This document shows, piece by piece, positions 39,703-49,683 of a DNA stretch of 64,000 bases. The first letter of the stretch is position 1. Each line of letters opens with the position of its first letter. The translations under genes and the position numbers were made by a program. Under the pieces are notes generated by a model. It saw only the letters and a list, made by a program, of their open reading frames with translations, was not told the DNA's origin and ran no database searches. Source of the DNA: Frondihabitans peucedani (GTDB lineage: Bacteria > Actinomycetota > Actinomycetes > Actinomycetales > Microbacteriaceae); NCBI RefSeq assembly GCF_039537585.1, contig NZ_BAABAU010000001.1, forward strand, positions 1,426,001-1,490,000. The letters are read 5' to 3'.

Positions 39703-39795
39703 GCGCCTCCGATCACCCGACGCCGCCGCTGTCAAGGCCCGACGCCCAGAGCCCAGGCGGCGTACCGCTGGATGTTCCCAACGAAAGGAACACCC

Positions 39796-40335
39796 ATGTC
39801 ACGACGCAACACGCTCGTCCGCTCCCTCCACGACCTCGGAGCCGCCGCCTGGTTCGGCGGCAACCTCATGGGCGCCGTCGGCCTGAACGGTGCTGCGGCC
39901 GCTGCGAGCGACCCCTCGGAGCGCCTGCGTCTCGCCAGCGTCGGCTGGGCCAAGTGGGCGCCGCTGCAGTGGGCCGGGATCATCTCGCACGGGATCGGCG
40001 GCATCGGGCTCATCCTCGGCAACCGGCAGCGCCTCGCCGGCCAGAAGGAGGGCCGGTCGAACACCGTGATCAAGAGCGTGATCACGCTCGCCGCGGTCGG
40101 TACCACCATCGGCTCGGGCCTCGCCGGTGCAGCTCAGGCGAAGCACTCCGACGAGCCCGCGAGCGGCGCCACCGAGCCGAGCAGCGAGTCGTCCGAGACG
40201 CTGAAGAAGGCGCAGGCGCTGCAGAAGCGCCTGCAGTGGGTGACTCCCGTGCTCGTCGGGATCGTCCTCATCCTGGGCGCTCAGCAGGGCGAGCAGCAGC
40301 GCCCTGTCGCCGGGCTCGCCGCGAAGAAGAAGTAG
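39796..40335 (+). CDS. Membrane protein of unknown function
   Basis: 179 aa, three to four hydrophobic segments: LGAAAWFGGNLMGAVGL (about 10-27), WAGIISHGIGGIGLIL (about 56-72), SVITLAAVGTTIGSGLAG (about 88-106) and LQWVTPVLVGIVLILGA (about 144-161). A Ser/Glu-rich hydrophilic stretch precedes the last helix and the end is basic (AAKKK). ATG 39796 has AAAGGA 7 bases upstream; an ATG at 39772 lacks this. Looks like a conserved actinobacterial membrane protein but I cannot name a function. Confidence 0.72.
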   Translation: MSRRNTLVRSLHDLGAAAWFGGNLMGAVGLNGAAAAASDPSERLRLASVGWAKWAPLQWAGIISHGIGGIGLILGNRQRLAGQKEGRSNTVIKSVITLAAVGTTIGSGLAGAAQAKHSDEPASGATEPSSESSETLKKAQALQKRLQWVTPVLVGIVLILGAQQGEQQRPVAGLAAKKK

Positions 40336-40765
40336 CGCGGGGTCGCGCCGCGAGCTGCCGCGGGTCGCGTGTCGTGGGCGTGGGCTCGGGCCCGGGCTCG
40401 GTGGCGTCCCGGGGTGCCCGTCGCGTGCATACGGACGGAGATCCTGCCCCGGCGTACATATGGACGGAGATCCTGCCCTCGCGTACATATGGACGGAGAT
40501 TGTGCCCCGCTGTGCACATATGGACGGAGATTCTCGGGCGATACCCTTCCGATTCGCATGAAGTCGACGACGAACCGCGGATCTCCGTCCTTATGTACCT
40601 GAAAGTCACGGACGACAAAGAATCTCCGTCCATATGCACCGAGAAACCGCACACGGGCGAGGATCTCCGTCCATATGCATGGAGAAACCGCACAGGGGCG
40701 AGGATCTCCGTCCATATGCACCAGGAGGCCAGGCACACGCAGAAGGAGGAGCGCCAGCACGGAGC
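40336..40765. other. Gene-free convergent gap holding an inverted repeat array
   Basis: 430 bases between convergent stops. Frames that stay open here translate the repeats into changing, low-quality peptides and are not supported as genes. The main content is the array at 40428-40718. Confidence 0.7.
40428..40718. repeat. Inverted array of eight copies of a 16-bp word (4 + 4)
   Basis: Four copies of CATATGGACGGAGATC on the plus strand start at 40428, 40457, 40486 and 40517 (period 29, 29, 31). After a 47-bp centre come four reverse-complement copies, GATCTCCGTCCATATG, starting at 40580, 40621, 40662 and 40703 (period exactly 41). Cores differ by at most one or two bases. The spacers of the right half are almost identical to each other (GAGAAACCGCACA then GGGCGAG); left-half spacers resemble them with about 12 bases missing. 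Function unknown; not a CRISPR (no unique spacers). Confidence 0.85.
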
Positions 40766-42910
40766 TCAGCGCTCGCGGGGCACCGCCGTCAGCTCGACCA
40801 CAGCCGCACTCGCCGGCAGCAGCACCGGCAGCTCGATGCCTGCGGTCGCGAGCATCCTGCCGGTCAGGCGCACCGGACGCTCGAGCCAGGCGAGCGGCGA
40901 CTGGCCCGGGCCGTCGGCTGTGCCGGGCGAGAGCAGCGCGAGCTCGTAGAGCACGTCGGGATCGAGACCCGGCAGGATCACCCGCCCCACCGGCAGCGTG
41001 ACGCTCGCCGTGCGCTGGGTCAGGACGAACACGGCCTCCGACGCATCGCGCGCGACGATCCCGCGGATGTCGACCGACGGGTCGATCACGTCGGCGCGGA
41101 CACTGCGGCCGGTGTGGAAGAGACCGCGCTTGCGCTTGTACGTGGCGACCCAGGCGGCGAGCTCGTCGAGGTCGGCCTGCGACAGAGCGGTGAGGTCGGC
41201 CTCGATGCCGAGGTGACCGAACAGGGCGACGGCGGCCTGGAACGCGACGGGCGCCGTGCGCCCGGTGGAGTGCGACCGGAGCGACCCGATGTGCTGCCCC
41301 ATCAGCTCATAGGGCACCAGGAGGTTCGTGTAGGCCTGGTTGTCGAGCCGCTCGAGCGGGTCGATGCAGTCGCTCACCCAGATGCGGTCGGTCCGGTCGA
41401 GGATCCCGAGGTCGACCCGCGCTCCTCCCGAGGCGCAGCTCTCGATCTCCACGCCGGGGTGCCTGCGGCGGAGCTCGTCGAGCAGGGCGTAGAGGGCGAG
41501 CGTCGACTCGTGCGTGGCGGGACGACCGGTGAGCGGGTGGGCGGCCTCGAGGAGGTCGCGGTTGTGGTCCCACTTGAGGTACGCGATGTCGTTCTCGGCG
41601 AGCAGGGAGTCGAGGCGCTCGAGCAGGTACGCGGCGCAGTCCGGGTTCGCCAGGTCGAGGACGTGCTGCTGCCGACCCGACACGGGGAACCGCGGCGCAG
41701 GATGCAGGATCCAGTCCGGGTGCGCCCGGGCGAGGTCGCTGTCGAGGTTGACCATCTCGGGCTCCACCCAAAGCCCGAACTCGAGGCCGAGGGCTCGCAC
41801 CCGGTCGATGATCGGCGCGAGTCCGTCGGGCCAGACGCCCTCGTCGACGTACCAGTCGCCGAGGCCGGCCGTGTCGTCGCGGCGGTGCCGGAACCAGCCG
41901 TCGTCGAGCACGAACCGCTCGACGCCGACCGACGCGGCGACGTCGGCCAGCGCCGAGAGGCGGTCGAGGTCGTGGTCGAAGTAGACGGCCTCCCAGGTGT
42001 TGAGCGTGACCGGCCGGGGCGACGCAGGATGCTGCGGGCGCGCCCTCAGCTCGTCGTGGATCCGCCCCGCGGCCTCGTCGAGCCCCTCGCCCCAGGTGCC
42101 GACGATCCACGGCGTCTCGTAGGTCTGCCCGGGCTCGAGGAGCCCCTCGCCGGGAGCGAGGAGCTCGCCCGCGGTCAGGACCGCGTCGGCCGAAGCGGTG
42201 CGGACCGCCGAGATGCGGTGGTCGCCGCTCCAGGCGGGGTGGATCCCGTGGACGGTGCCCGACCGGAATCCGAAGCCGGGCGTGCCCGCCCACAGCAGCA
42301 GCGTGGCGTCGGCCCCGGGGCGCCCCCGGCGGGTCGAACGCACGTGCTCCCCCACCGTGAAGGCGTGCCGCTGCGGGCTCCGCTCCTTCAGGTGCCGGCC
42401 GGTGGCGTCCAGGATCTCGCGCGCGGTCGCGGGCAGCGGGAACGTCGCCTGGAGAGACGCCACCTGGTAGTCGTCGGCGCCCGTGTTCGTGAGCGCGAGG
42501 CGCTGCCGCAGCACGCCGCTCGCACCCAGGGCGACGTCGACCGCGATGCGGAGGCCGGCCGCCGCATCCTGCGCCTCGACGCGGAGCGAGGTGTCGGAGA
42601 TCTGCGTGCCGGTCACGGAGAAGGCCGGGGTGAAGTCGACGCCGCCGCGCCGCGAGCCGGAGAGGCCGGGCTCGTGCTGCCAGCCCTCGGACTCGAGCGG
42701 CAGGGCGGTGGCGCGGGTCGGGAGGTCGATCGCTCCCGAGACCCGCTGCGGCAGGGCCGCCGTGGCGAGAGAGGCGAGCTCGTCGGTGGAGGCCTCGCCG
42801 AGGTCGGCGCCCCAGTGCACGATCTTCGGCAGGCTGTCGTCGCTGCTCGAGAGGACGACGCTCGTGCCGCCCGCTCGGAGGTGGACGATTCGGCTGGCGG
42901 CGACGGTCAT
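40766..42910 (-). CDS. Alpha-galactosidase, GH36
   Basis: 714 aa, full GH36 length: N-terminal beta-supersandwich (about 1-290), central TIM barrel, C-terminal beta domain. Active-site motifs: nucleophile Asp in YLKWDHNR and acid/base Asp in IWVSDCIDP; ESCASGGAR and the FVLDDGWF barrel strand are also present. Cuts terminal alpha-galactose from raffinose/melibiose-type sugars; no signal peptide, so intracellular after import. ATG 42910 follows GAGGAG by 8 bases. Last gene of the LacI-controlled operon. Confidence 0.92.
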   Translation of the reverse strand: MTVAASRIVHLRAGGTSVVLSSSDDSLPKIVHWGADLGEASTDELASLATAALPQRVSGAIDLPTRATALPLESEGWQHEPGLSGSRRGGVDFTPAFSVTGTQISDTSLRVEAQDAAAGLRIAVDVALGASGVLRQRLALTNTGADDYQVASLQATFPLPATAREILDATGRHLKERSPQRHAFTVGEHVRSTRRGRPGADATLLLWAGTPGFGFRSGTVHGIHPAWSGDHRISAVRTASADAVLTAGELLAPGEGLLEPGQTYETPWIVGTWGEGLDEAAGRIHDELRARPQHPASPRPVTLNTWEAVYFDHDLDRLSALADVAASVGVERFVLDDGWFRHRRDDTAGLGDWYVDEGVWPDGLAPIIDRVRALGLEFGLWVEPEMVNLDSDLARAHPDWILHPAPRFPVSGRQQHVLDLANPDCAAYLLERLDSLLAENDIAYLKWDHNRDLLEAAHPLTGRPATHESTLALYALLDELRRRHPGVEIESCASGGARVDLGILDRTDRIWVSDCIDPLERLDNQAYTNLLVPYELMGQHIGSLRSHSTGRTAPVAFQAAVALFGHLGIEADLTALSQADLDELAAWVATYKRKRGLFHTGRSVRADVIDPSVDIRGIVARDASEAVFVLTQRTASVTLPVGRVILPGLDPDVLYELALLSPGTADGPGQSPLAWLERPVRLTGRMLATAGIELPVLLPASAAVVELTAVPRER

Positions 42911-43003
42911 CAGGGCTGCTCCTCGGAAGGGGTGGTCGGGTGACACGGCAGCGGCCGCCCCGGAAGGTTCCCGGTGCGGCCGCCGACTCGTGCGGTGCTG
43001 GTG

Positions 43004-49588: not shown

Positions 49589-49606
49589 CCCGGCGCCTCT
49601 GCGCTA

Positions 49607-49683
49607 GTGCATGAGATTCTCGCGACCCGGCGCCGTTCATGCGGATCCGGGGCCCTCGTTGCGAAGAATTCCTGCATCAGCAC
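49607..49683. repeat. Imperfect inverted repeat between convergent genes
   Basis: GTGCATGAGATTCTCGC at the left partly pairs with GCGAAGAATTCCTGCATCAGCAC-type sequence at the right (several mismatches and bulges). It may be a weak bidirectional terminator. Confidence 0.35.

Follow-up and report, generated by a model that had tools for sequence, protein, structure and literature searches.

Paired DNA sites with helical phasing at gene ends in Microbacteriaceae

The window analyzed in this study is a stretch of 64,000 nucleotides from Frondihabitans peucedani (NCBI RefSeq assembly GCF_039537585.1, contig NZ_BAABAU010000001.1, positions 1,426,001 to 1,490,000). It contains a 430-bp gap (40336-40765) between two convergent genes. 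The first gene (39772-40335, + strand) encodes a protein of 187 amino acids with no Pfam match, and the second (40766-42946, - strand) encodes a GH36 α-galactosidase (Melibiase). The gap is occupied by eight copies of a 16-bp word, all within one mismatch of CATATGGACGGAGATC. Four copies are on the + strand, at 40428-40443 (CATACGGACGGAGATC), 40457-40472 (exact word), 40486-40501 (CATATGGACGGAGATT), and 40517-40532 (CATATGGACGGAGATT, one mismatch), with start-to-start spacings of 29, 29, and 31 bp. Four copies are on the - strand, at 40580-40595 (CATAAGGACGGAGATC, one mismatch), 40621-40636 (CATATGGACGGAGATT), 40662-40677 (exact word), and 40703-40718 (exact word), with spacings of 41, 41, and 41 bp. 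The innermost copies are separated by 47 bp. The window contains 10 matches to the word at up to three mismatches, against 0.32 expected from shuffled sequences, and none of 100 shuffles reached 10. Thus, the symmetric 4 + 4 array described in the original prediction is present exactly as it was reported.

To determine whether the array was a local duplication, the word was searched in the whole genome (designated G000) with up to two mismatches. A single occurrence in the genome had been named in advance as the result that would point to a tandem duplication without function. In contrast, 100 copies were detected (47 forward and 53 reverse), with no hit for the reversed control pattern. All copies fell into 17 intergenic clusters. 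Sixteen of these are built on one or more copies of a 79-bp core, consisting of two inverted arms at a start-to-start spacing of 63 bp around a 39-bp middle. The spacing between + and - words was 63 bp in 23 core pairs and 64 bp in one pair. The seventeenth cluster (locus L039, 2282-2329) is a short 48-bp palindrome of two words 32 bp apart, without a phased middle. In the window, the core extends from 40517 to 40595 (+; contig C1, 1466517-1466595) and was matched by each of the three models described below (R1, R2, and R3). Its middle (40537-40575) contains at its center the Frondihabitans motif CCGATtCGCATGA.

Additional words are located outward from the cores, facing the center, at 28-31 bp (12 cases) or 40-42 bp (40 cases), corresponding to 3 or 4 helical turns. 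The existence of these two spacing classes explains the earlier remark that the left-half unit of the array looks like the right-half unit with about 12 bp removed. The numbers of left and right words need not match, since clusters range from 1 + 1 and 3 + 1 to 1 + 5. The symmetric 4 + 4 arrangement is therefore not the rule, and the essential unit is the central 1 + 1 core. Array units were near-identical within loci. A different route of expansion was observed in L046 (2136-2655) and L044 (2164-2486), in which five and three whole cores, respectively, are repeated in tandem at ~101-122 bp. Some half-sites are back to back, sharing CATATG or CATAAC with a reversed half-site offset by 10 bp (GATCTCCGTCCATAACGACGGAGATC), as observed in L033 (2598-2623), in L041 (2353-2419), and in the window (40621-40646 and 40662-40687). 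The outer words can therefore themselves be dyads. The genes flanking the clusters are diverse metabolic, transport, and helicase genes, unrelated to one another. According to our own heuristic gene caller, based on codon usage, 10 of the 17 clusters are located between converging genes, 6 between tandem genes, and 1 in a divergent gap.

A search for the exact word in 98 other relatives returned one single chance-like hit, and the family became visible only with models of the whole core. A model of the Frondihabitans cores (R1) detected elements in four of six congeners, with other arm sequences but the same length and center: GAAATCGAAGGGGATTTTCG in G006, taken to be Frondihabitans sucicola (NZ_AP027732.1), GAATTTGAAGGAGAT in G005, GAAATTCAAGGAGATT in G003, and CAATTGCGAGGAGATT in G002. 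An orthologue of the gene upstream from the array was found in only one congener, the downstream side of which was not examined, so that conservation of this very array at its locus was not assessed. A second arm subfamily, composed of single elements, is present in the genome of the window. One member is located in the window itself at 49604-49680 (-; contig C1, 1475603-1475681, E = 2.1e-14 with R2), about 15 bp after a TAG stop codon, with arms CTAGTGCATGAGATTCT...AGAATTCCTGCATCAG. At least six more are present in the genome (C1:787022, C4:528785, C1:1260485, C1:1698862, C3:393228, and C1:94775). A broader model (R2) detected elements in 31 of 150 sampled Microbacteriaceae genomes, representing 24 of 85 genera, and a third model (R3) added, more weakly, two genomes of one other family of the order. 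A pattern scan of named genomes returned at least Cryobacterium species, F. sucicola, Compostimonas, Arenivirga, and a further Microbacteriaceae genome. Depending on the genome, dozens to about 130 copies are present. The length of the element is 79-80 bp. Since R2 and R3 favor 79-bp elements, hits of about 90-94, 68, and 71 bp (L098, L259, L269, L252, L256, and L116) are only leads, although 68 and 90 bp are one helical turn (11 bp) away from 79 bp, which would fit a phase rule. Searches of phage and plasmid collections returned no match.

The arms, of about 20 bp, follow roughly (G/C)AAA(A/T)(C/T)GNNGGAGATT. GGAGAT is nearly invariant, whereas the outer half differs between lineages, both arms differing together. 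To avoid imposing the spacing, scans were performed with the gap left free from 34 to 64 bp. Nearly all Cryobacterium pairs examined were found at one spacing, with 119, 116, and 54 exact pairs in three genomes and none for the control. The same peak was obtained in genomes G000, G042, and G175. In a test devoid of the selection bias of pair searches, one exact arm was used alone in a Cryobacterium genome. Eighteen of 20 apparently single arms had a partner with 1-4 mismatches, located at exactly 63 bp (17 arms) or 64 bp (1 arm). In the Cryobacterium breve genome (G195; e.g., L277, L283, L286, and L287), one-sided arm changes recurred at one position (ATCTCC to ATCACC), perhaps a tolerated or hypermutable base.

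In Cryobacterium, the middles of different copies are largely unrelated. Orthologous elements from two species, with flanks 83-95% identical, retained 98% of the arm bases but only 64% of the middle bases, without indels. The arm identity and the length were partly fixed by the manner in which the loci were found, but the middle was not. In spite of this divergence, A/T content rose and fell with a period of 10.05 bp in the middle and 10.2 bp over the whole element. The phase was the same in 104 of 104 Cryobacterium elements, in comparison to 187 of 405 control stretches. A separate shuffle test of the phasing gave p ≤ 0.001. Phasing stopped at the arms, and the flanks were flat. The same phase was observed in 24 of 24 cores of the genome of the window, 17 of 19 of F. 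sucicola, and 35 of 37 from other genera, and the core of the window displays the A/T trough at the center found in the rest of the family. No base pairing was detected in the Cryobacterium middles. This is the signature of DNA bent or wrapped on a protein surface, although A/T phasing does not prove bending. Cryobacterium middles are slightly more alike than predicted by column composition, and part of the shared phasing could therefore reflect common descent. In Frondihabitans, the middle is partly conserved in sequence, which wrapping alone does not explain. It carries one of two directional motifs, CGATCCGCATGA or CGATCCGCCTCACTTTCG, which are shared across arm subfamilies, CGATCCGCATGA-like sequences being also present in two other genera (see also L089 and L091). 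This could be a second contact or an internal cleavage or binding motif. Elements from several genera (L080, L092, L104, L109, L255, L260, and L263) carry an inner motif, CACGCCG, in several cases facing a reversed CGGCGTG copy inside the arms.

The position of the elements relative to genes was analyzed in Cryobacterium. Forty-three elements were located between converging, 47 between tandem, and 5 between diverging genes. The corresponding numbers for neighboring gaps of at least 80 bp without an element were 17, 128, and 74 (Fisher p = 1e-13 for convergent gaps and 7e-9 for avoidance of divergent gaps). The median distance to a stop codon was 55 bp. Gene ends with an element were not depleted of short hairpins, and the comparison was therefore uninformative as to whether the element replaces terminators. 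At one locus followed without selection, five of nine Cryobacterium species had the element between the same converging genes, three had only a short gap, and one, Cryobacterium algoricola (L247), had an ordinary perfect hairpin after the stop codon (ATGACCGCCCGGCTGC..GCAGCCGGGCGGTCAT). Thus, sites come and go on the scale of species, and single sites are dispensable.

The explanation that we favor, with moderate confidence, is that the array is an expanded copy of a dispersed double-stranded binding site. The site itself, its spacing, its phasing, and its position are established by the sequence comparisons. In contrast, the existence of the protein and its wrapping of DNA are deduced from anatomy, no binding protein having been identified and no experiment performed, and the function is a weaker deduction from position. 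In this view, a sequence-specific protein, as a dimer or higher oligomer, binds both arms on one face of the helix, six turns apart, and wraps or tightly bends the ~80 bp between and including them, the extra half-sites further out extending the same complex in Frondihabitans. The likely role would be a boundary, stopping or separating converging RNA polymerases and/or absorbing or insulating the positive supercoils that gather between converging genes, as suggested by position and by what is known of such gaps in E. coli. The fact that arms differ between lineages but match within a genome suggests that the specificity of the protein and its sites evolve together. The original interpretation was partly supported. 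Among the possibilities it offered, a protein-binding array fits best, given the invariant arms, the drifting middle, the fixed length, and the A/T phasing. A large cruciform is weakened by the lack of pairing in the Cryobacterium middle and by arm changes that are not compensated within a genome. The trace of a mobile short repeat stays possible as an origin, since species differ in the presence of the element at one locus, but no transposase or long element with these ends was found. A bolder reading, which is possible but tentative, is that these elements form a family of sequence-specific, nucleosome-like wrapping sites in actinobacteria, marking the ends of transcription units genome-wide through a dedicated protein that changes specificity together with dozens of sites in each lineage. 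If our explanation is correct, these bacteria possess a genome-wide set of marked gene ends bound by an unknown DNA-wrapping protein, which would be a hard-wired counterpart to the supercoil- or gyrase-rich zones between converging genes of E. coli. This would provide a direct test of whether bacteria build sequence-specific topological or transcription boundaries, and the concerted change of all sites in each lineage would offer a natural experiment in the co-evolution of a protein and its sites.

Other explanations were considered less likely. An RNA hairpin at mRNA 3' ends, acting as a bidirectional terminator or as a guard against exonucleases, is unlikely but has support from the location of the elements, from the ordinary hairpin of C. 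algoricola, from members outside Cryobacterium that pair almost along their whole length, and from strong co-variation of the arms across lineages (94% of cells paired and 14 of 18 pairs with changes on both sides; similarly in A2). However, two facing sites for one protein would co-vary in the same manner. Within one genome, where the two ideas differ, 31 departures from the word affected one arm only and 1 was matched on both arms, and Cryobacterium partner arms with 1-4 mismatches persist. Compensatory changes were therefore observed between lineages but not within a genome, which leaves this criterion undecided taken alone, although the latter result argues for double-stranded half-sites. 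A hairpin loop requires neither a fixed length of 39 nt nor 10-bp phasing. In addition, no U tract and no terminator-like site were detected in the array, half-site numbers often differ between left and right, and the orientation of the loop in the six tandem cases of the genome follows no gene direction. A search of positions 40200-40900 with cmscan against Rfam returned only sub-threshold matches, mostly to microRNA families.

A non-autonomous mobile element (MITE- or REP-like) with arms recognized by a transposase, the bias for 3' ends resulting from selection against insertion into genes and promoters, is about as unlikely. It would account for the many dispersed copies, the presence or absence of the element between species at one locus, the species-specific arm variants homogeneous within a genome, and the local tandem expansion. 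However, middles unrelated between most copies yet constant in length are unlike recent MITE copies, and orthologous positions are shared between species. An improbable alternative is a DNA gyrase site, the phased middle being the wrap signal that draws gyrase to positive supercoils, as BIME-2 does in E. coli. BIME-2 elements are over-represented among gyrase cleavage sites, which are enriched downstream of transcribed operons (PMC6379681), but strong, lineage-variable sequence arms are not a property of gyrase. Finally, a local duplication without function, or neutral repeats kept alike by template switching between the arms, is very unlikely. It is consistent with the near-identity of units within loci and with one Cryobacterium element (strain HLT2-28) carrying the same unusual change, GGAGAT to GGACAT, on both arms, indicating that occasional copying between arms is possible. 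It is contradicted by the family-wide distribution, the fixed spacing, the freely drifting middle, and the constant phasing across genera.

We found no published description of these sites in searches for intergenic palindromes of Microbacteriaceae, Cryobacterium, or actinobacteria, although the restriction of these searches to open-licence papers makes this absence weak evidence. Searches for the arm words in papers returned only unrelated hits, which look like primer sequences, and a survey of REP elements (PMC12306157) contains no mention of Microbacteriaceae or Cryobacterium. The REP and BIME elements of enterobacteria and pseudomonads are likewise dispersed, intergenic, inverted units near gene 3' ends, also found in arrays of alternating direction. 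REPs bind DNA polymerase I and facilitate Rho-dependent termination, and BIME-2 binds DNA gyrase (PMC2817692); binding of gyrase, IHF, or DNA polymerase I was not assayed here. The present elements differ by arms that are far apart around a phased middle of fixed length, by half-sites that tolerate one-sided changes, and by the absence of a GTAG-type REP palindrome from the aligned arms and middles. No IS200-type (RAYT) Y1 transposase was detected in the genome of the window with PF01797, which matched in five named control genomes. MITEs are also short, non-coding, intergenic, and multi-copy, with inverted ends. No related long element or transposase was found here, since all words of the genome of the window lie in clusters and apparently single arms have their partner nearby in the one Cryobacterium genome sampled, arms of other lineages not having been examined. 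No clean target duplication was seen at the locus with five filled and four empty species, where the intergenic sequence was too diverged to define the target and the comparison favors neither outcome. A CRISPR array is excluded, as the original prediction had stated, since the repeats face each other and the spacers are similar within loci.

The E. coli gyrase motif shares the ~10-bp phased A/T-G/C content read as wrapping and the activity near ends of transcription units, but it is degenerate in sequence, 130 bp long, with a period of 10.75 bp and an aperiodic center from -16 to +19 around the cut (PMC6379681). In contrast, phasing in the present element runs through the center at ~10.1-10.2 bp and is limited to 79 bp. 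Regions bound by GapR are, like these elements, concentrated between convergent genes, where positive supercoils gather (PMC8360656), but GapR-seq marks a DNA topology, whereas the site described here is itself sequence-specific, with paired arms. Nucleosome-positioning DNA displays A/T-G/C phasing at ~10.2 bp. The period and pattern are similar to those found here, with a comparable ~80 bp per turn, but the present sites are bacterial and have fixed sequence-specific ends.
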